Shown: one piece after another, positions 11,603-22,229 of the stretch
Numbering within the stretch: position 1 is the first letter of the stretch
Layout of the letters: every line of letters starts with the position of its first letter
Assembly: GCF_014204915.1 (NCBI RefSeq)
Contig: NZ_JACHMH010000001.1
Coordinates: forward strand, 1,798,001-1,862,000
Direction: 5' to 3'
DNA length: 64,000 bases
Source of the DNA: Crossiella cryophila
Lineage (GTDB): Bacteria; Actinomycetota; Actinomycetes; Mycobacteriales; Pseudonocardiaceae
The notes under the pieces: model-generated
Databases searched by the model: none
Seen by the model: only the letters and a program-made list of their open reading frames with translations
What the model was told of the DNA's origin: nothing
Made by a program: the position numbers and the translations under genes

Positions 11603-12256
11603 GTGAGCCGTCTGCCCTGGAAAACCGGTGTCCTCGCGGTATTCGCCGTCCTGTCGCTCACTGCCTGTACCGGCAATGGCACGCAGGGTGCGCCGCCGGA
11701 GGCCACCGAGCGGGTGCCGGTGATCGCGCCGGGCAAGCCTGGTGAGCCGGCGAAAACCCTGTCGAGCATGCCGCCGCTGGCCGAGCGGCCGCCCGGTGAT
11801 GCCGATTTCCGCTATGTCTCGATGATGATTCCGCATCACCGGCAGGCGCTGGAGATGACCGCGCTGGCCCCGGACCGCGCCCAGCACCAGGATGTGCGCG
11901 GGCTGGCCGCGCGGATCGACGGCGCGCAGGCCCCGGAGATCCAGGCCATGTCGGCCTACCTGCAGCGGCACAAGAAACCGGTGCCGGAGGCGCATGCCGG
12001 CGGCGGACACGGTTCCGGTGACGCGGCCATGCCGGGGATGGCCTCCTTCGCGGACATGGTCCACCTCAAGAACAGCAGGGGCGCGGACTTCGACAAGCTG
12101 TTCGTGCGCTTGATGATCGCCCACCACGAGGGCGCGGTGAAGATGGCCAACGACGTGCTGGCCAGCGGGCACGACATCTTCGTCGAGGAGATGGCCCAGG
12201 ACGTCATCGCCACCCAGACCGCGGAGATCAAGCGGATGAAGGAAATGCGGTTCTGA
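11603..12256 (+). CDS. DUF305 lipoprotein
   Basis: 217 residues. A lipoprotein signal peptide with lipobox LTAC (Cys near 22) precedes a DUF305 domain with its paired His motifs: MMIPHHRQALEMTALA (about 74-89) and FVRLMIAHHEGAVKMANDV (about 168-186). DUF305 proteins are ferritin-like four-helix folds, often linked to metal, especially copper, handling; substrate and function here are unproven. Start GTG at 11603 has only a weak ribosome binding site. It is divergent from the LVIVD gene and precedes the subtilase pair. Confidence 0.87.
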   Translation: MSRLPWKTGVLAVFAVLSLTACTGNGTQGAPPEATERVPVIAPGKPGEPAKTLSSMPPLAERPPGDADFRYVSMMIPHHRQALEMTALAPDRAQHQDVRGLAARIDGAQAPEIQAMSAYLQRHKKPVPEAHAGGGHGSGDAAMPGMASFADMVHLKNSRGADFDKLFVRLMIAHHEGAVKMANDVLASGHDIFVEEMAQDVIATQTAEIKRMKEMRF

Positions 12257-12415: not shown

Positions 12416-15400
12416 GTGACCAACCCCTCCACCCGCCGCTGGCGTGCGCCTGCCGCGGCCGTGCTGGCCGCAGCGCTGGGCACCGCCGCGTTCGGCCTGG
12501 CCGCGCCCGCCTCGGCGGCCCCGCAACAGAATCCGCCCCAGGCGGACAAACAGCTCGACAAGCGCGACCGGGAACTCCTGGCCGAGGCCGCCCGCGAGGG
12601 CAAGCAGAACGTGACCCTGCTGGTGGCCGCGGCCAAGGGCCGCACCGACAAGGCCGTTGAGGAGCTGCGCTCGCTCGGCGGTGTCGTGGAGTCCACCGAG
12701 AAGAGCGTGGACTACGTCAAGGTCTCCGTGCCGCGCGAGAAGGCCGAGCAGGTCGCGAAGCTGAAGTCGGTGGACGCCATCGACGTCGACGCGGTCATCC
12801 CGGTCGACGACCCGCGTCCGCAGCCCAACGGCGCGGTGCAGCCGCTGCCGCAGAAGGCGCCCGACGCCAAGACCCCCCGGGTCAACCCGTACATGCCGAC
12901 CGGCGACATCGGCGCCGCGCAGTTCGGGCAGACGCTGCCGTTCTGGGACGGCCGGGGCACCACCATCGCGATCCTGGACTCCGGCGTCGACCTCGACCAC
13001 CCGGCGCTGGCCACCACCAGCACCGGTGAGCGCAAGATCGTCGACTGGTACACCGCGAACTCGCCCACCTCCGGCGACGGCACCTGGGTCGCGATGACCA
13101 AGAACGGCCGCACCGGCAAGTTCACCGAGGCCGGCCGCGAGTGGACCGCGCCCAGCACGGGTGGCCCGTACTCCTTCGGCCTGTTCAAGGAGACCGCGCA
13201 GGACCTGGGCGCGGCGGGCAGCGAGATCGGCGGCGACGTCAACCGGGACGGCGACCGCGCCGACTCCTGGGGCGTGCTGCAGGACATCGTCACCAAGGAG
13301 GTCCGGGTCGACCTCAACGGCGACGGCGACTTCACCAACGACAAGGTGATGATCGACTACAAGGTCAAGCAGGACGTGCAGTACTTCGGCACGGACAAGG
13401 CCGAGACCGCCAACATCGTTGAGCGGATGGCCTTCGTGGTGCAGACCGACCGCTCGATCTACGACATCGGTGGCACCCCGTACGTCAGCCTGGGCATCGC
13501 CTCCGGCTCGCACGGTTCGCACGTGGCAGGCATCGCGGCCGGGCACAAGCTGCTCGGCGGCAACATCGCAGGTGGCGCGCCGGGCGCGAAGCTGATCTCG
13601 ATCAAGGCCTGCCTGTCCAGCCCCGGCTGCACCTCCAGCGGTCTGCTCGACGGCGTGCTGTACGCGGCCAAGAACGGCGCGGACGTCATCAACATCTCCA
13701 TCGGCGGACTGCCCGGCCTCAACGACGGCAACAACGCGCGGGCCGCGCTCTACAACCGCACCATCGCCGAGTACAAGATGCAGATCTTCATCTCGGCCGG
13801 TAACAGCGGCGCAGGCGCGAACACCGTCGGCGACCCCTCGGTGGCCACCGACGCGGTCAGCGTGGGCTCCTCGATCACCGCGGCGACCTGGCTGAGCAAC
13901 TACGGCTCGGAGGCCGCGGCCAAGGAGGGCCTGCACCCGTTCTCCTCGCGCGGTCCGGCCGAGGACGGCGGCTTCAAGCCGAACATCATCGCCCCCGGCT
14001 CGGCGATCTCCACCACGCTGCGCTGGCAGGCCCCCGGTCCGACCGTCGGCACCTTCCAGCTGCCTGCCGGGTACTCGATGTTCAACGGCACCTCGATGGC
14101 CTCCCCGCAGGCGACCGGCGCGGCCGCGCTGCTGCTCAGCGCGTACAAGGCCACCCACGGCGGGCAGCGTCCGACGCCAGCCCAACTGCGCAACGCGATC
14201 TACTCGAGCGCCAAGTTCCTGCCGAACCTGGGCGCCTACGAGCAGGGCGCCGGCAAGTTCGACGTCTGGGGCGCGTTCTTCGCGCTGCAGCGCGGACCGG
14301 CCACCGACACGGTGCGCACCGAGGTCGAGGTGGACACCTCGCTGGAAGGCCAGCTGGCCAAGCCCGGCTTCGGCGTCGGCATCCACGACCGTGAGGGCGT
14401 GGCCGCCGGCAAGTCCTACACCAGGACCTACACCCTGACCCGCACCACCGGCGCGGCCGGCAACCACCGCTACTCGGTGGACTGGGTGGGCAACGACGGC
14501 ACCTTCTCCTCGGCGCGTTCGGTGCAGCTCCCGCTGAACACCCCGGTCAAGTTCGAGGTCAAGGTCAACCCGAAGTCGGCAGGCGCGCACTCCGCCCTGC
14601 TGCGCCTGGACAACCCGGCCACCCCTGGCATCGACTCGCAGGGCCTGGCCGCGGTCTTCGCCGCCCAGGACTTCACCGCCGCGGCCGGGTACAAGGTCAC
14701 CTCCACCGGTGAGATCGGCCGCAACCAGGCCAAGTCGGTCTTCGTGCGGGTGCCCCAGGGCGCCAGCGCACTCAAGATCGACCTGGCCGCCGGCGGCGCT
14801 GCGGGCAAGGGCCAGGTGCGCTTCCTGCGCTACGACCCGACCGGTGTGCCGAGGGATGTCACCTCGACCACCAACTGCTACAACCCGGACGCGGGCGCCG
14901 GTTGCTCGGGCGGCACGCCGAACAGCCGCACCATCACCAACCCGCAGCCCGGCGTGTGGGAGATCATCATCGAGGCCCGCCGGACCTCGGATGTGAAGGT
15001 CGCGCCGTACTCGGTCACCGCCGAGGTGCTGGGCACCAAGATCACCCCGAACCCGGACGTGATCCCCACGGCCGCGGTCGGCACTCCGCTGGAGCGCCAG
15101 TACACCGTGGCCAACAACCTGGCAGGCTTCACCGGCAAGCTCGTCGGCGGCACCCTGGCCAGCGCGAAGACCGACCGGCCGAGCATCGCCAACCTGACGT
15201 CCCAGCAGTACGACGTCACGGTCCCGGCCGGCGCGTCCAGCTTCACCGCCACCATCGGCAACACCGCCGACGCCGCCGCCGACCTGGACCTCACCGTCCA
15301 GAACTGCACCAGCGGCACCTGCGTGGACACCGCGGCCAGTGCCGACGGTGACTCGGAGGAGTCGGTCACCATCGCCAACCCCGCCGCGGGCAAGTGGCGC

Positions 15401-15667
15401 GTGGTGATCGACGGCTACTCGGTGCCCGCCGGCACCACCGCCTATGACTACCTCGACTCCTTCGTCGCGGCGGCCCTTGGCAACATCACGGCGACCGACA
15501 CGGACGCCGCGCACGCGGCGGGCACCTCGTGGGCGGTCCCGGCGAAGATCAACGTCGGCGGCCAGCCCGGCGCCGGGCGGCACCTGCGCGGCGATCTGCT
15601 GGTGCAGACCGCCGACAAGGTGACCGTCGGCCGTGGCGCGGTGCAGATCCAGGCCGTGACCGGCTGA
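12416..15667 (+). CDS. large secreted S8 subtilisin-like serine protease (paralogue 1)
   Basis: 1083 residues from GTG 12416 (AAGGGA site). Signal peptide ends PASAAP. A propeptide-like domain (about 45-135; QLDKRDRELL ... VIPVDDPRP) precedes the catalytic domain. The triad is visible: Asp188 in AILDSGVDLDHP, His366 in HGSHVAGIAAG and Ser560 in FNGTSMASPQATG, with the oxyanion Asn463 in ISAGN. A long insertion between Asp and His carries two calcium-loop-like strings (DVNRDGDRAD and DLNGDGDFTND). The C-terminal about 480 residues are beta-rich, resembling pre-peptidase C-terminal domains with repeats such as GVWEIIIEARRTSD and GKWRVVIDGYSVP. It is likely exported. Its gene is followed by a terminator and then a close paralogue. 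Confidence 0.93.
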   Translation: MTNPSTRRWRAPAAAVLAAALGTAAFGLAAPASAAPQQNPPQADKQLDKRDRELLAEAAREGKQNVTLLVAAAKGRTDKAVEELRSLGGVVESTEKSVDYVKVSVPREKAEQVAKLKSVDAIDVDAVIPVDDPRPQPNGAVQPLPQKAPDAKTPRVNPYMPTGDIGAAQFGQTLPFWDGRGTTIAILDSGVDLDHPALATTSTGERKIVDWYTANSPTSGDGTWVAMTKNGRTGKFTEAGREWTAPSTGGPYSFGLFKETAQDLGAAGSEIGGDVNRDGDRADSWGVLQDIVTKEVRVDLNGDGDFTNDKVMIDYKVKQDVQYFGTDKAETANIVERMAFVVQTDRSIYDIGGTPYVSLGIASGSHGSHVAGIAAGHKLLGGNIAGGAPGAKLISIKACLSSPGCTSSGLLDGVLYAAKNGADVINISIGGLPGLNDGNNARAALYNRTIAEYKMQIFISAGNSGAGANTVGDPSVATDAVSVGSSITAATWLSNYGSEAAAKEGLHPFSSRGPAEDGGFKPNIIAPGSAISTTLRWQAPGPTVGTFQLPAGYSMFNGTSMASPQATGAAALLLSAYKATHGGQRPTPAQLRNAIYSSAKFLPNLGAYEQGAGKFDVWGAFFALQRGPATDTVRTEVEVDTSLEGQLAKPGFGVGIHDREGVAAGKSYTRTYTLTRTTGAAGNHRYSVDWVGNDGTFSSARSVQLPLNTPVKFEVKVNPKSAGAHSALLRLDNPATPGIDSQGLAAVFAAQDFTAAAGYKVTSTGEIGRNQAKSVFVRVPQGASALKIDLAAGGAAGKGQVRFLRYDPTGVPRDVTSTTNCYNPDAGAGCSGGTPNSRTITNPQPGVWEIIIEARRTSDVKVAPYSVTAEVLGTKITPNPDVIPTAAVGTPLERQYTVANNLAGFTGKLVGGTLASAKTDRPSIANLTSQQYDVTVPAGASSFTATIGNTADAAADLDLTVQNCTSGTCVDTAASADGDSEESVTIANPAAGKWRVVIDGYSVPAGTTAYDYLDSFVAAALGNITATDTDAAHAAGTSWAVPAKINVGGQPGAGRHLRGDLLVQTADKVTVGRGAVQIQAVTG

Positions 15668-15683
15668 CCAACTGAATGAACGA

Positions 15684-15718
15684 AGACCCCGTCCGGGCTG
15701 CACTCCCGGACGGGGTCT
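15684..15718 (+). terminator. terminator of subtilase 1
   Basis: AGACCCCGTCCGGG (15684-15697) and its exact complement (15705-15718) form a 14-bp stem with loop CTGCACT, followed by CGTCCTTTCC. The same loop heptamer is used by the subtilase 2 terminator. Confidence 0.9.
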
Positions 15719-15760
15719 CGTCCTTTCCGGCCAAGGCACCCGTCTCGAAGCGCCGAAACC

Positions 15761-15773
15761 GTCCATTGTGGAT
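15761..15773. promoter_or_regulatory. GTCCA-TTG-TGGAT near-palindrome upstream of subtilase 2
   Basis: A 13-bp inverted repeat with one end mismatch, 47 bases before the subtilase 2 start. It corresponds to the site upstream of subtilase 1 and belongs to a palindrome family scattered across the window (TCCAC-W-GTGGA), so it may not be a dedicated operator. Confidence 0.35.
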
Positions 15774-15820
15774 ACCGTGCGACCGATGCTCCGCTGATCG
15801 TCCGTACGAAGGGTGCCGCC

Positions 15821-18800
15821 GTGACCACACCGCTTCGCCCGCCGCGTCATCCCGGCGCGGTGCTCCTGCTCGCCTGCTCGGTGCTGGCCGCGATGAGCCT
15901 CACCGCGCTGCCCGCGACCGCGGCCCCGCCGGGCGAGGCGGTCAAACAGCTCGACAAGGCCGACCGCGGCCGGATCGCCGAGGCGCGCGGTGCCGGGCAG
16001 GCCACGGTCACCCTGCTGGTCGCCGCCGAGACCGGGCGGGCCGGGGACGCCGAGGCCGAGTTGCGGGAACTGGGCGGGGTGGTGCGGGCGAGTGAGCCCG
16101 CGGTGGGGTACCTCAAGGTCGACCTGCCCGCCGAGCACGCCGAGCGGGCGGCCCGGCTGGCCTCGGTCAAGGCGGTGGACGTGGATCACCTGGTGCGCCG
16201 GGAGAATCCGCGGCCGGACGGCGCCGAGCAGCCGATCCCGCAGCCCGCGCCCGGCCCCGCGACCCCGCGCGACAACCCCTATCTGCCCACCAGGGACATC
16301 GGCGCGCCCGGCTTCGGCGCCGACGGCCGGGGCACCACGATCGCGATCCTGGACTCCGGCGTGGATCTGGATCACCCGGCGCTGGCCACCACCAGCACCG
16401 GTGAGCGCAAGATCGTCGACTGGTACACCGCGAACTCGCCAACCTCCGGCGACGGCACCTGGGTGCAGATGTCCACCAAGCTCCACAGTGGACAGTTCAA
16501 CGCCGCCGACCGGGACTGGTCCGCACCCGCGACCGGTGGGCCCTATTCCTTCGGCCTGTTCCGGGAAATCGCGCAGGACCTGGGTGCGACGGGCAGTGAG
16601 ATCGGCGGCGACGTCAACCGGGACGGCGACCGCGCCGACTCCTGGGGCGTGCTCCAGGACACGGTCACCAAGCAGGTCCGGGTCGACCTGGACGGCGACG
16701 GCGACTTCACCGACGAGACGCCGATGATCGATTACAAGGTGAAGCACGACATCGGCCACTTCGGCCAGGACCGGCCGCAGACGCCGGTGCTGGACCGGGT
16801 CGCCTTCGTGGTGCAGACCGACCGCTCGACCTACGACGGCAAGGCCACGCCGTATGTGAGCCTGGGCATGGCCAGCGCAGCGCACGGCTCGCACGTGGCC
16901 GGGATCGCGGCCGGGAACAAGCTCTTCGGCGGGGCGATGGCCGGTGGCGCGCCGGGTGCGAAGCTCATCTCGGTCAAGGCCTGCCTGGCCACCGTGGCCT
17001 GCACCTCCAGCGGCCTGGTCGACGGCGTGCTCTACGCCGCGCGCAACGGCGCCGATGTCGTCAACATCTCCATCGGCGGCCTGCCCGGTCTCAACGACGG
17101 GGACAACGCCCGCGCCGCGCTCTACAACCGCACCATCGCCGAGTACAAGGTCCAGCTCTTCATCTCCGCGGGCAACGAGGGCGCGGGCGCGAACACCGTC
17201 GGCGACCCCTCGGTGGCCGCGGACGCGGTCAGCGTCGGCTCCTCGATCACCGCCGAGACCTGGCTGGCCGACTACGGATCCGTGGTCTCGGCCAAGCAGG
17301 GCCTGCACCCGTTCTCCTCCCGCGGACCGGCGGAGAACGGCGGCTTCAAGCCGAACATCATCGCCCCCGGCGCGGCGATTTCCACTGTGCCACCGTGGCA
17401 AACGCCCGGTCCGATCGCCGGCACCTATCCGCTGCCCGCCGGGTACTCGATGTTCAACGGCACCTCGATGGCCTCCCCGCAGGCCACCGGCGGCGCGGCG
17501 CTGCTGATCGGCGCGCACAAGGCCGCCCGCGGCGGCGCCCGGCCCGATCCGGCCTTGCTGCGCAACGCGATCTACTCCACCGCACGCTTCCTGCCGAACC
17601 TGGGCGCCTACGAACAGGGCGCCGGACTGATGGACGTCCCGGCCGCTTTCGCCGCCCTGCAACGGGATCCGGCGCCAGAGGTGATCAAGGCCGAGGTCGG
17701 AGTCAAGACCGTCCTGTCCGGACAGCTGGCCAAACCCGATGTGGGCGTTGGCATCCACGACCGCGAGGGCGTCCAGGTCGGCGTGGGCTACACCCGCACC
17801 TACACGCTCACCCGCACCACCGGATCGCCGAACCGGGCCTGGCACCGGGTGGAATGGCTCGGCAACGACGGCACGTTCAGCTCCGCGAGCAGCATCCGGC
17901 TGCCGCTGAACCAGCCGGTCACCCTGCCGGTGCGGATCACCCCGCGCACCGCGGGCGCGCATTCCGCGCTGCTGCGCATCGACAACCCGATGACCCCCGG
18001 CATCGACCTGTTCACCCTCAACTCGGTGTTCGCCCCGCTGGAACTCAACGCCGCCAACGGTTTCACCGCCAGTGCCAGCGGCGAGGCCGGGCGCAACAGC
18101 ACCCGCTCGACCTTCGTCAGGGTGCCGGCGGGCAGCACCGGCCTGAAGATCGATTTCGCCGGTGGCGGCGCGCCGGGCAAGGGCCAGCTGCGGTTCCTGC
18201 CGTTCACGCCCACCGGCCAGCCGTACGAGGAGACCGGGTCCCGGTTCTGCTACCTGCCCGACGGCGGCGGTGGTTGTCCCACCGGCTCACCGAGCAGTCG
18301 CACGGTGCTCGCGCCGCAGCCGGGGGTGTGGGAGATCGTCGCCGACGCCCGGCGTACCTCCGACGCGCTGGCCGCCCCGTTCACCGTGACCGTGGCCGCG
18401 CTGGCGATCAAGGTCCAACCGGATCCGGACGTGGTGGCCACCGCGCCGCTCGGCCGGCCGGTGTCCAGGGAGTACGCGCTGCACAGCACCATGGCCGCGT
18501 TCACCGGACGGCTGGCGGGCGGCCCACTGGGCAGTGCGCGCACGTTGCGGCCCACCATCGCCGCGGGTACTCAGCTGAGTTACGAGGTGACCCTGCCCGA
18601 GGGCACCTCCACGCTCACCGTGCGCACCGGCAACCCGGCCGACCCCGGCGCCGACCTGGACCTGCTGGTCTTCGACTGCTCAAGTGGCACCTGCGCGCAG
18701 GCCGGGTCCAGCGGCGGACCCACCGCGACGGAGAAGGTGACCATCAGCAACCCGAAGGCCGGGCGCTGGCGGATCGAGATCGACGGCTACGCGGTGCCCA

Positions 18801-19039
18801 CCGGCAGTACGGCCTATGACTACCTGGACCTCTACGCCGCGCCCTCACTCGGCGCGGTCGAGGTCAGCGACACCGATCAGGCGAGGCCGAGTGGGAGTAC
18901 GTGGACGGTGCCGGGCACGGTGACCGCGCGCAGCGGTCTGGCGCCGGGCCGGGCGTTGCGCGGTGAACTCCAGGTCCGCACCACCGCCGAGGGCGTGGCC
19001 GCCATCAGCGGGGTCGAGGTCCGCGCCACCAGCGGCTGA
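15821..19039 (+). CDS. large secreted S8 subtilisin-like serine protease (paralogue 2)
   Basis: 1072 residues from GTG 15821 (GAAGGG site), collinear with paralogue 1 throughout. Signal peptide ends LPATAAP. Propeptide region QLDKADRGRIAEARGAG to VRRENPRP (about 43-132). Triad Asp178 (AILDSGVDLDHP), His355 (HGSHVAGIAAG), Ser549 (FNGTSMASPQATGG), with Asn in ISAGNEG. The two acidic calcium-like loops and the beta-rich C-terminal half are kept. The best-conserved stretches include the region after the catalytic Asp (TTSTGERKIVDWYTANSPTS). This is a tandem duplication. The next gene, convergent, encodes a lipoprotein with the same propeptide domain. Confidence 0.93.
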   Translation: MTTPLRPPRHPGAVLLLACSVLAAMSLTALPATAAPPGEAVKQLDKADRGRIAEARGAGQATVTLLVAAETGRAGDAEAELRELGGVVRASEPAVGYLKVDLPAEHAERAARLASVKAVDVDHLVRRENPRPDGAEQPIPQPAPGPATPRDNPYLPTRDIGAPGFGADGRGTTIAILDSGVDLDHPALATTSTGERKIVDWYTANSPTSGDGTWVQMSTKLHSGQFNAADRDWSAPATGGPYSFGLFREIAQDLGATGSEIGGDVNRDGDRADSWGVLQDTVTKQVRVDLDGDGDFTDETPMIDYKVKHDIGHFGQDRPQTPVLDRVAFVVQTDRSTYDGKATPYVSLGMASAAHGSHVAGIAAGNKLFGGAMAGGAPGAKLISVKACLATVACTSSGLVDGVLYAARNGADVVNISIGGLPGLNDGDNARAALYNRTIAEYKVQLFISAGNEGAGANTVGDPSVAADAVSVGSSITAETWLADYGSVVSAKQGLHPFSSRGPAENGGFKPNIIAPGAAISTVPPWQTPGPIAGTYPLPAGYSMFNGTSMASPQATGGAALLIGAHKAARGGARPDPALLRNAIYSTARFLPNLGAYEQGAGLMDVPAAFAALQRDPAPEVIKAEVGVKTVLSGQLAKPDVGVGIHDREGVQVGVGYTRTYTLTRTTGSPNRAWHRVEWLGNDGTFSSASSIRLPLNQPVTLPVRITPRTAGAHSALLRIDNPMTPGIDLFTLNSVFAPLELNAANGFTASASGEAGRNSTRSTFVRVPAGSTGLKIDFAGGGAPGKGQLRFLPFTPTGQPYEETGSRFCYLPDGGGGCPTGSPSSRTVLAPQPGVWEIVADARRTSDALAAPFTVTVAALAIKVQPDPDVVATAPLGRPVSREYALHSTMAAFTGRLAGGPLGSARTLRPTIAAGTQLSYEVTLPEGTSTLTVRTGNPADPGADLDLLVFDCSSGTCAQAGSSGGPTATEKVTISNPKAGRWRIEIDGYAVPTGSTAYDYLDLYAAPSLGAVEVSDTDQARPSGSTWTVPGTVTARSGLAPGRALRGELQVRTTAEGVAAISGVEVRATSG

Positions 19040-19048
19040 ACCGGCCGA

Positions 19049-19504
19049 TCACGACGGCCCCACACCGGGCTGCACTCCCGGTGTGGGGTCGTCTCGCGGG
19101 ATCAGCCGATCCAGTTCCACTGATGTGACAGAGGGCAGCGCGGCGGCTCGTTCCACGGCGTCGAGGGGCACTTCGACCCGCAGATAACCGACCGCACCGT
19201 CACTGACCTCCACAGTCGCCCCGAGTTCGCGTAGCCCCGTGGTGACCTTCTCGGTCGCACCGGGTTCGGTGAACACCATGAGCAGCATGGTCTTCCGGCC
19301 CTCCTGACGGGCCTTGGCCACCTGCTGGCGTTTCGCCTCATCAAGCTTGCGCACTGGCGACTCGCTACTGACCTGCGTACTGGGCGAACCACTGGACGTG
19401 GCCGAGGGCGGGGAACCGGCCTGGGGCCGCGCGCCGCATGAGCCGAGCGCGAGGGCGGCCGTGACCGCGAACACCCCAGCACCGACCCGGCAGAGCGAAC
19501 CCAT
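19049..19504 (-). CDS. lipoprotein made of a stand-alone subtilase-propeptide-like domain
   Basis: 151 residues from the ATG at 19504 to the TGA at 19051-19049. A lipoprotein signal peptide (lipobox ALGSC, Cys23) and a Ser/Thr/Pro-rich spacer (24-50) lead to a single domain: RKLDEAKRQQVAKARQEG, then LRELGATVEVSDGAVGYLRV, then VERAAALPSVTSVELDRLIP and RDDPTPG. It aligns without gaps to the propeptide region of both neighbouring subtilases; by hand count about 39 of 89 positions match paralogue 2. Propeptides of S8 proteases act as folding chaperones and tight inhibitors, and stand-alone I9-type inhibitors are known elsewhere. A membrane-anchored inhibitor or chaperone of the two proteases is inferred. 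The gene converges on subtilase 2 and its 3' end contains that gene's terminator hairpin. It is not detectably a fragment, since it has its own lipobox. Confidence 0.85.
   Translation of the reverse strand: MGSLCRVGAGVFAVTAALALGSCGARPQAGSPPSATSSGSPSTQVSSESPVRKLDEAKRQQVAKARQEGRKTMLLMVFTEPGATEKVTTGLRELGATVEVSDGAVGYLRVEVPLDAVERAAALPSVTSVELDRLIPRDDPTPGVQPGVGPS
19053..19093 (+). terminator. terminator of subtilase 2, embedded in the lipoprotein gene
   Basis: Bases 19053-19069 and 19077-19093 form a 17-bp stem with one wobble around loop CTGCACT, the same loop as the subtilase 1 terminator. On the other strand it encodes the last residues of the propeptide-like lipoprotein (DPTPGVQPGVG). Confidence 0.8.
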
Positions 19505-19591: not shown

Positions 19592-20338
19592 GTGACCATG
19601 CATACTCAGTCGATCTCGTTCGGGAGGCTCGCCTCCGAGGCATGGCCGGGCCTGCACACCCGCGAGGTGGACGGCTGGCTGGTGCGCACCGCCGGCGGGG
19701 TGACCAACCGGGCCAACTCGGTCCTGGCCGAACAGTCCCCCACTGACCTGGAGGCCGCACTGACCGAGGTCGAACGGCACTACGCCCGCCTCGGCCAGCC
19801 CAGCGTCTTCCAGGTAGGCCCGGACAGCAGACCAACAAACCTGGACGAGGTCCTCGCCGCCCGCGGCTACCGCATCGTCACCCCGGTCCACGGCCAGACC
19901 GCCCCCATCCCCACGGCCCTGGCGGCCCTCGGCGAGCAGACCCGGCACCCCGTGGTCACCGATCACCCCACCGAGACCTGGCTGGACCTGCATTGGGCGG
20001 AAAGCGGCCGCACCGACCCGGCAGGCAGGTTCATCACCCACCAGATCCTGACCGCGGTCCCGGCCGGCTACGCCAACCTGAACGACCAGGCCCTGGCCAG
20101 GGGCGCCCTGGTGCGGGACTGGGTCGGCATCTTCGGCATGTGGGTGGACCCCGCGGCCCGCGGCCAGGGCCTGGCCCGCGCGGTGCTCGCCGGCCTGCTG
20201 CACTGGGCAGCGGACCGGGGAGCGACCCACGCGTTCCTCCAGGTGATGGAGCAGAACACGGTCGCGCAGCGGTTGTACGCCAGCGCCGGATTCAGCACCG
20301 TCAGCCGGTACCACTACCGCGTACTCGACCAGCCGTGA
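19592..20338 (+). CDS. GNAT-family N-acetyltransferase
   Basis: 248 residues. An N-terminal part (LASEAWPGLHTREVDGWLV) is followed by a C-terminal GNAT domain with the acetyl-CoA binding motif GMWVDPAARGQGLARAVLAGL (about 185-205) and the C-terminal motif NTVAQRLYASAGFSTVSRYHY. The substrate is unknown. Start GTG 19592 or ATG 19598; there is no clear ribosome binding site, so a leaderless transcript is possible. The gene converges on the chitinase gene with 10 bases between stops. Confidence 0.85.
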   Translation: MTMHTQSISFGRLASEAWPGLHTREVDGWLVRTAGGVTNRANSVLAEQSPTDLEAALTEVERHYARLGQPSVFQVGPDSRPTNLDEVLAARGYRIVTPVHGQTAPIPTALAALGEQTRHPVVTDHPTETWLDLHWAESGRTDPAGRFITHQILTAVPAGYANLNDQALARGALVRDWVGIFGMWVDPAARGQGLARAVLAGLLHWAADRGATHAFLQVMEQNTVAQRLYASAGFSTVSRYHYRVLDQP

Positions 20339-20348
20339 TCGGTCCCCG

Positions 20349-22163
20349 CTAGCCGAGGAACGGCCCGGCCATCGCGTTGAGCAGGCTGTGCTGGGCGTCG
20401 TCATCGGACAACTCCCACATGAACGTGCCGCGCAACCCGGTCTGCTTGGCGTAGGCCGCCTTCACCGCGATCGAGGTCGGGTCCTCGTAGCTGATGAAGG
20501 TCTTGCTCGAGGCGTTGTACAGGTACGGCACCTGGGCGGCGCCGTGCCGGAGCTGTTGCCAGGCCGGGTTGTTCAGGTACTGCGCCTTGATCGTCTTCCA
20601 CTGCGGCGCGTTGATGGTGCCGGAGTAGGGCAGGAACAGCCCCTTCCGCGCGTCCGCCTGCGGGCTGTTGATGGTGAAACCCCGCGAGTAGAACGGCGTG
20701 CCCAGCACCATCTTGTTCTTCGGCACCCCGTTGGCCAGGTAGTGCTCGATCCCGCCGATCACGTTGTTGCCGCCCTTCATCGGCTGCCCGGTCGGGTCCT
20801 CGGCGGCGGCCCGCATCGGCGCGTTGAACATCGAGATCGGCGAGTAGCCGGTGCCCATGTCGTAGGTCATCACGTTGTAGAAGTCGAGCGTCTTGGCCAC
20901 CTCGGCCAGCTCGAAGCTCTGCGTCACGTCGTACGGGCCGTCGTCCTGGAACCGCCCGACCGGCGTGGCCGCGATGAGCTGCAGCCTGCGGCCCTGCGCG
21001 ACACCGACCGCGTCGATCTGCCGCCGCAGCTCCTGGAACAGCAGGGTGGCGTTGCGCTTGTCCTCCGGCCGCTTGGTGATGATGCCGCCGGAGACCGGGA
21101 ACTCCCAGTCGATGTCGATCCCGTCGAAGACATCCCGGTGCTGCTTGAGGTACAGGTCAACGCACGAGCTGGCGAACGCGCTACGCGCGGCCGGGGTCAG
21201 CGCCCCGTCGGAGAACCCGTCCGCACCCCAGCCCCCCAACGAGATGATCACGTTGAGGTGCGGGTGCCGCTGCTGCAGCGTGCGCAGCTCGGCGAAGTGG
21301 TTCAGCGCCGCGGCACTGGGCGCCTGGCACCGACCACCCTGCACCGACCCGAAGGCGTAGTACAGGTGGGTCAGCTTCTGCGCCGGGATCTGCGCGACCG
21401 GGAACCCGGTCCAGCCCGCGTAGTAGGCCCCGACGATCCCGCCCCTGGGCGCACTGGTGTCCGCAGGCGTGCTGCCGGTGACAGCCTGGCTGCGCCCGGA
21501 CTCGTTGCCGGCCGCGTCCACCGCGGTCACCACGTAGGTGTGCGTGCTCTCCGGCGCCAGCCCGGACACGGTCACCTCCGCACCCGCGCTGGTGCCGACC
21601 AGCACCGAGCCCTCGTACACCCGGTACCCGGCCACACCCACGTTGTCCGTGGCCGCGGTCCAGGCCAGCGTCAGGCTGCTCGCCGTGCTCCCACTGACCC
21701 GCACCGCGCCAGGCACACTCGGCGCCAGGGTGTCGACGGGCCCGCCGACACAAGGCGCTCCGTTGACCGTGCAGCCGGTCGGCCCGGCGAGGGCGCCGGT
21801 GAAGCTGCCGTTGAAGCCGACGGTCACACTCTGGCCCGCGCCGATCGTGCCGTTCCAGGACAGCGCCTGCACGGTGTTGCGGTTGCCGGACACCGAGTGC
21901 TGCCCGTTCCACAGGCTGGTCACCCGGACGTTGTCCGGCAGGTCGAACACCAGCGTCCACCCGCTCGCGGGCGAGTCACCGGTGTTGCGGATGGTGTACT
22001 GCGCCCCGAACCCGGAATCCCAGGTCCCGGTGGTGGCGAAGCTCGCGGACAGCTGCGCTGCCGCACTCGCCGAGGGCGGTATCAGGAGCCCGGACAACGC
22101 GAGCAGTCCTCCGGACAACAGGGCCAGCAGACGGGTACTCGGGCGGGAACGCGGATGGGACAC
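20349..22163 (-). CDS. secreted chitinase, GH18 with CBM2 and fibronectin type III domains
   Basis: 604 residues from GTG 22163, which is preceded by GGAGGA. Signal peptide ends ASAAAQ. The domains in order are a CBM2-type module (about 36-140; WTLVFDLPDNVRVTSLWNG ... VTVGFNGSF), a fibronectin type III domain (about 146-233; PGAVRVSGSTASSLTLAW) and a GH18 catalytic barrel (about 240-604) with the DxxDxDxE motif DGIDIDWEFP, catalytic Glu354. SLGGW and YDMGTGYSP are further GH18 strings. It hydrolyses chitin outside the cell. A DasR-type operator 51 bases upstream indicates control by N-acetylglucosamine availability. Confidence 0.93.
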   Translation of the reverse strand: MSHPRSRPSTRLLALLSGGLLALSGLLIPPSASAAAQLSASFATTGTWDSGFGAQYTIRNTGDSPASGWTLVFDLPDNVRVTSLWNGQHSVSGNRNTVQALSWNGTIGAGQSVTVGFNGSFTGALAGPTGCTVNGAPCVGGPVDTLAPSVPGAVRVSGSTASSLTLAWTAATDNVGVAGYRVYEGSVLVGTSAGAEVTVSGLAPESTHTYVVTAVDAAGNESGRSQAVTGSTPADTSAPRGGIVGAYYAGWTGFPVAQIPAQKLTHLYYAFGSVQGGRCQAPSAAALNHFAELRTLQQRHPHLNVIISLGGWGADGFSDGALTPAARSAFASSCVDLYLKQHRDVFDGIDIDWEFPVSGGIITKRPEDKRNATLLFQELRRQIDAVGVAQGRRLQLIAATPVGRFQDDGPYDVTQSFELAEVAKTLDFYNVMTYDMGTGYSPISMFNAPMRAAAEDPTGQPMKGGNNVIGGIEHYLANGVPKNKMVLGTPFYSRGFTINSPQADARKGLFLPYSGTINAPQWKTIKAQYLNNPAWQQLRHGAAQVPYLYNASSKTFISYEDPTSIAVKAAYAKQTGLRGTFMWELSDDDAQHSLLNAMAGPFLG

Positions 22164-22213
22164 CGGCAGTCCTCCAGCAGCTCGTGCGGTGGCGGCGGCG
22201 AGCCCACCGAGCA

Positions 22214-22229
22214 TCTGGTCTAGACCTAT
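22214..22229. promoter_or_regulatory. DasR-responsive element (dre) upstream of the chitinase
   Basis: TCTGGTCTAGACCTAT has the perfect 10-bp palindrome GGTCTAGACC (22217-22226), the core of the DasR consensus ACTGGTCTAGACCACT from Streptomyces. It lies about 50 bases upstream of the GTG start. DasR is a GntR-type repressor released by phosphorylated amino sugars; no dasR gene is in this window. Confidence 0.8.

Follow-up and report, generated by a model that had tools for sequence, protein, structure and literature searches.

Inhibitors that resemble propeptides (Spi, SUB1-ProM) and predicted lipoprotein inhibitors (Bfi/Bti) are each known, in both cases encoded beside proteases. In Plasmodium, SUB1-ProM is a stand-alone subtilase propeptide encoded beside subtilase genes, and the recombinant protein inhibits SUB1 (PMC6993865). 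The SpeB inhibitor Spi of Streptococcus is a bacterial propeptide analogue encoded beside a secreted protease, and Bacteroides Bfi/Bti include several predicted lipoproteins that are encoded beside C10 proteases and are proposed to protect the cell (PMC2873492, PMC3462683). The propeptide fold also serves as a separate subtilase inhibitor in POIA1, the yeast proteinase B inhibitor and Arabidopsis SPI-1 (PMC6993865), and dentilisin (PrcB-PrcA-PrtP) includes lipoproteins that bind a subtilisin-family protease and are encoded together with it (PMC8167434). Here we describe, in a 64,000-nucleotide (nt) stretch of the Crossiella cryophila genome (GCF_014204915.1, contig NZ_JACHMH010000001.1, positions 1,798,001 to 1,862,000; hereafter the window), a predicted lipoprotein that appears to be the propeptide of its neighbouring secreted subtilases on its own. 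In the open-licence papers that we searched, no lipoprotein corresponding to the propeptide of an adjacent subtilase was described.

The locus holds three genes, which a sequence-only reading of the window had already placed correctly: subtilase 1 (12416-15667, + strand, 1083 amino acids (aa)), subtilase 2 (15821-19039, + strand, 1072 aa) and the stand-alone propeptide lipoprotein (19504-19049, - strand, 151 aa), which is convergent with subtilase 2 and lies 9 bp from it. Both subtilases are predicted to be secreted S8 proteases, each with a Sec-type signal recognized by eye, and they share 63% identity over their full length. Their propeptides span about residues 45-137 (nt 12548-12826, + strand) and 42-134 (nt 15944-16222, + strand), their catalytic domains residues 179-612 and 169-598 (PF00082, expectation value (E) 2.2e-44 and 2e-40), and their C-terminal PPC domains residues 932-999 and 920-988, for subtilases 1 and 2 respectively. 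The active-site Asp, His, Asn (oxyanion) and Ser (D139, H316, N413 and S510 in the numbering of the modelled part) are invariant in 37/37 aligned family members. As had been read from the letters, the lipoprotein begins with a signal peptide bearing the lipobox LGSC (19436-19504, - strand), whose Cys23 is near-invariant across aligned copies, and continues through a Ser/Pro/Thr-rich linker into a propeptide-like domain of ~90 residues (residues 53-142; 19079-19348, - strand).

This locus differs from each of the described cases. We know of no lipid anchor for POIA1, the yeast proteinase B inhibitor or SPI-1. These three are also eukaryotic, and significant sequence similarity is reported to be lacking (PMC6993865). 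SUB1-ProM belongs to a eukaryotic parasite, its gene and the subtilase genes point in the same direction, it probably resides in the parasitophorous vacuole, and it lacks a bacterial lipoprotein signal (PMC6993865). Spi targets a family C10 cysteine protease, is co-transcribed with it and is thought to be cytoplasmic, whereas Bfi/Bti are staphostatin-like rather than propeptide-like, are paired with cysteine proteases, belong to a Gram-negative outer membrane setting and are likewise co-transcribed (PMC2873492, PMC3462683). Dentilisin is encoded in one operon, its PrtP requires PrcB, and PrcB reportedly has no homologues outside oral Treponema (PMC8167434).

BLASTP aligned the lipoprotein domain to the subtilase 2 propeptide with 43/102 identical residues (E 3e-22), close to the 39/89 counted by hand in the sequence-only reading, and to the subtilase 1 propeptide with 38/99 (E 1e-19). 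The gapless alignment first claimed for both propeptides held for subtilase 2; that to subtilase 1 has one 4-residue gap at the extreme C-terminus. Local alignment scores of 181 (subtilase 1) and 200 (subtilase 2) far exceed the maxima of 55 and 58 obtained from 1000 shuffles each, and the likeness is thus homology rather than chance. Helices of the catalytic domain are capped by two acidic residues of the propeptide in both subtilisin BPN' and malarial SUB1 (PMC6993865); the acidic pair of the lipoprotein, E130 and D132, is equivalent by eye to Glu69/Asp71 of BPN'. Position 130 is Asp in 94/94 propeptides and Asp or Glu in 55/60 copies, position 132 is Asp in 89/94 propeptides and Asp or Glu in 58/60 copies, and Pro140 is invariant in both (94/94 and 60/60). 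The stand-alone copies also have a signature of their own: Glu at position 133 (51/60) versus mostly Gly in propeptides (71/94), Pro at 134 (51/60) versus mostly Leu (74/94), and Thr or Glu at 141 (55/60) versus Arg or Lys (76/94). The final residue of the Tk-subtilisin propeptide aligns structurally with model residue 138-139 of the lipoprotein domain, so Pro140 would sit just past the scissile position, where, as a guess that leans on a low-confidence tail of the model, it would resist cutting.

Structure prediction pointed the same way. Residues 61-130 of the lipoprotein were modelled at a block-mean predicted local distance difference test score of 94-98, and subtilase propeptides made up 17 of the first 18 structural matches to the domain model, in agreement with the fold first proposed. 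In a Foldseek search NapD ranked first, no match fell below E 0.001, and subtilase propeptides filled 18 of rows 2-24. The protease model places its own propeptide as in solved pro-subtilisins. A sequence profile searched against solved structures matched the Tk-subtilisin propeptide over 64 residues (E 0.004); because short ankyrin/DARPin matches score better in the same search (E 0.0005), this match alone proves nothing. Homology and predicted fold support the view that the domain is a subtilase propeptide on its own. Membership of PF05922 (Inhibitor_I9) or another named family was ruled out by Pfam and NCBIfam searches. A search with 50 members at E up to 0.1 matched 26 families; PF05922 is absent from the 25 listed, and the lipase foldase (LipH/Lif) family is not matched by the lipoprotein, for which only DUF4265 and NIL appeared at E up to 1, both below the cut-off. 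Elsewhere in its own genome, nine PF05922 matches (E up to 0.001) all lie in frames of 402-630 aa, with no short stand-alone I9 frame among them.

We then asked how widely the pair occurs. We surveyed 390 Pseudonocardiaceae genomes and obtained a match to the protease in 157 at a threshold of E 1e-5. All 157 were rechecked (the genus set, 60 by single sequence, and 59 and 41 by profile, with eight genomes in two sets), and the 233 genomes without a match were profile-searched only where they formed part of the order set (397 genomes). A frame of protease length is present in all of the 157 but G223 and G238, whose protease is divided between two frames. An intact propeptide gene separate from the protease is present in 63/157. 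The linkage first seen at the single locus was borne out, in that the copy is kept beside this protease and no stand-alone copy without a protease was found among the 63 copy-bearing genomes. All five Crossiella genomes share one gene order, with two proteases and a single copy. A copy is also present in 25/25 genomes of group g8 (Saccharothrix group), 23/24 of g25 (Lentzea group), 3/3 of g42, 1/1 of g43, 2/2 of g32, 1/6 of g23, 1/8 of g22 and 2/43 of g11; none was found in the remaining groups of the 157, including g4 (16 genomes) and g33 (7). The tandem-protease layout singled out in the sequence-only reading is specific to Crossiella, where the protease is duplicated, while other genera have one protease and one copy.

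Wider profile searches of 397 order, 394 class and 296 phylum genomes (overlapping sets) revealed the protease family in other families; among the candidates read in these searches, no stand-alone copy outside Pseudonocardiaceae stood up. Two short-frame candidates (G952, G464) look like broken protease frames, and six further short-frame matches were one protease start cut by a contig end, three S8 proteases and two occurrences of an unrelated enzyme, presumably GlpX-type. Spread on plasmids was also set aside, with three records only, two of them annotated as S8 peptidase and one unannotated. Family proteases split over two frames were seen in a g23 genome (L124), a Phycicoccus record (L162) and a Lentzea-group genome (L075). 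A record titled Nocardia sp. NRRL S-836 (L133) carries a Lentzea-type pair, and its title may be a misnomer.

The copy is convergent with the protease in 58/63 genomes. On the same strand it lies upstream of the protease in G061, G070 and G072 and downstream in G219, and in G236 copy and protease sit at contig ends in positions that fit the convergent layout. Upstream same-strand copies were noted in three Saccharothrix-group genomes (L117, L118, L119). Stop-to-stop gaps of convergent pairs range from 4 bp to 2.7 kb; they exceed 790 bp in 8 g8 genomes, so another gene may lie between the two there. Start sites of the copies were picked by rule and three were corrected by eye. A lipobox, called by motif rule and by eye, is present in 59/63 copies, so the membrane tethering first proposed stands as a prediction for these and not for the four that have no signal peptide. 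The leaderless 67-residue g11 copies (L165, 5737-6201, - strand; L166, 2350-2829, + strand; frames given stop to stop) are both still convergent.

Most copies end in Asp/Leu-Pro-Thr/Glu-Pro, and that of Crossiella continues for nine residues through a hairpin (19053-19093, 17-nt arms) in the final codons of the lipoprotein gene, which encodes its Crossiella-specific tail. This hairpin has the same 7-nt loop, CTGCACT, as one 3' of subtilase 1 (15684-15718, 14-nt arms). In 5/5 other loci tested, a hairpin lies between the protease and copy genes or touches a stop codon. The hairpin after subtilase 1 is probably its terminator, and that at 19053-19093 probably a terminator common to the convergent pair. 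Apart from the two hairpins, a scan for sigma-70 promoters and terminators gave one terminator-like site, and it detected no promoter. Six other proteins of the window were searched for at E 1e-10: four have matches in Crossiella locus L126, which does not extend far enough to include the remaining two, and the other 38 named loci (25 with a copy) gave none. Immediately upstream of subtilase 1 lies a gene for a DUF305/CopM-like protein (11603-12256) with a match among the named loci only in Crossiella, and on the other side a GNAT acetyltransferase (19592-20338) adjoins a GH18 chitinase with CBM2 and fn3 domains (20349-22214).

A FastTree phylogeny of 95 protease rows revealed that all copies go with one fully supported protease clade: 63/77 rows inside it have a copy versus 0/18 outside, and copy presence as a label takes 6 changes on this tree. 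In Crossiella the two proteases are sisters (support 99), so their duplication is later than the origin of the copy. In a domain tree of 99 rows, which has few columns, an arbitrary root and one artefactual row, 32 copies form one clade (82/89; 85% of 200 bootstraps) apart from the propeptides, which rules out that the copy arose recently from one of the Crossiella proteases. Gene conversion by the adjoining propeptide was likewise ruled out, as in 13 genomes it resembles the copy no more than other propeptides do. The leaderless copies cluster together (100/93), for which a single loss of the leader is the simplest reading. The whole-gene ratio of nonsynonymous to synonymous substitution rates (dN/dS) of copies is 0 to 0.56 in 13 pairs, reaching ~1 in single short segments (signal peptide, G003 versus G001); the copies are under purifying selection.

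We consider it moderately likely that the lipoprotein is a membrane-tethered, trans-acting propeptide copy that inhibits the neighbouring subtilases and thereby protects the envelope from the cell's own secreted protease. To judge from its lipobox, the protein would be exported by the Sec pathway and then lipidated at Cys23, so that a flexible linker would hold the propeptide domain at the external side of the cytoplasmic membrane. In that position the domain would bind the catalytic domains of the secreted subtilases at the site of their cis propeptide (i.e., the propeptide within the protease itself) and block the active-site cleft. Mature enzyme remaining at the membrane, or returning there by diffusion, would be held inactive, the released enzyme would work at a distance, and anchoring would confine inhibition to the cell surface. 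The lipoprotein is expected to work like an I9 inhibitor, although it is not a PF05922 member by score. An isolated propeptide can tightly inhibit its own subtilase, as described for pernisine (PMC10580911).

Several observations weigh against this reading. An intact copy is missing in 94/157 genomes with a match, among them the Lentzea-group genome G229 (L123, 3050-3325, + strand), in which a decayed copy has lost the lipobox and parts of the domain and the adjoining protease is intact; the copy is thus not always needed. Four of the 63 copies have no leader; two, from g11, are 67 residues long and two, from g32, 85. As most pairs are convergent, protease and copy are there not transcribed together. 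In 78/78 pairs the copies diverge faster than the propeptides that match them (13 genomes; mean identity 37.5% versus 62.4%) and are no more alike to their own neighbour's propeptide than to other propeptides (31.4% versus 31.9%, 13 genomes), which does not speak for tight co-evolution. The lipoprotein does not match PF05922 at E up to 1, and a profile comparison fails against seven propeptides from other subtilases of its genome (probability 1.6%). Finally, isolated propeptides of mesophilic Bacillus subtilases are described as disordered alone and degraded by their own enzyme (PMC10580911); a lasting inhibitor would need more stability than these.

The lipoprotein could instead be a membrane-tethered steric chaperone (foldase) that aids folding of the emerging protease, as LipH does for LipA. 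Mesophilic bacterial subtilase propeptides act as chaperones as well as inhibitors (PMC10580911), and a membrane-anchored foldase for a secreted enzyme has precedent (PMC13381987). However, both proteases retain a complete cis propeptide and 94/157 matching genomes manage without an intact copy, which argues against this role, and leaderless copies could not work outside the membrane; we regard a foldase as unlikely. Also improbable is a docking site that holds part of the secreted protease at the cell surface, with inhibition as a side effect, as proposed for PrcB/PrcA1 with dentilisin. The lipobox and linker in 59/63 copies and the dentilisin precedent (PMC8167434) are consistent with docking, but leaderless copies can anchor nothing, and a pure tether is disfavored because the expected propeptide-type contact would cover the active site. 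That the copy is a relic, a propeptide fragment that was duplicated long ago, now drifts functionless and owes its place near the protease to chance, is very doubtful: fast divergence, the one decayed copy and the many genomes without an intact one fit drift, but the frame is open in 63 genomes with a lipobox in 59, whole-gene dN/dS stays between 0 and 0.56 in the 13 pairs, and the copy is kept in 25/25 Saccharothrix-group and 23/24 Lentzea-group genomes.

A broader reading, which we consider less likely than not, goes further. The copies may represent an undescribed actinomycete inhibitor family that split once from the protease and became a surface-anchored guard, retained in convergent orientation beside it across several genera of Pseudonocardiaceae; one sub-lineage would have become leaderless and moved to the cytosol, so that the same fold would guard two compartments against a single enzyme. 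How Gram-positive bacteria keep the broad proteases they secrete from attacking their own envelope is, to our knowledge, poorly understood. The pair described here is small and defined, occurs in 63 genomes and comes with natural controls (i.e., protease alone, a decayed copy, leaderless copies and a duplicated protease). With this pair the function of a trans-acting propeptide can be tested directly, and the copies provide a compact candidate family of inhibitors named by neither Pfam nor NCBIfam.

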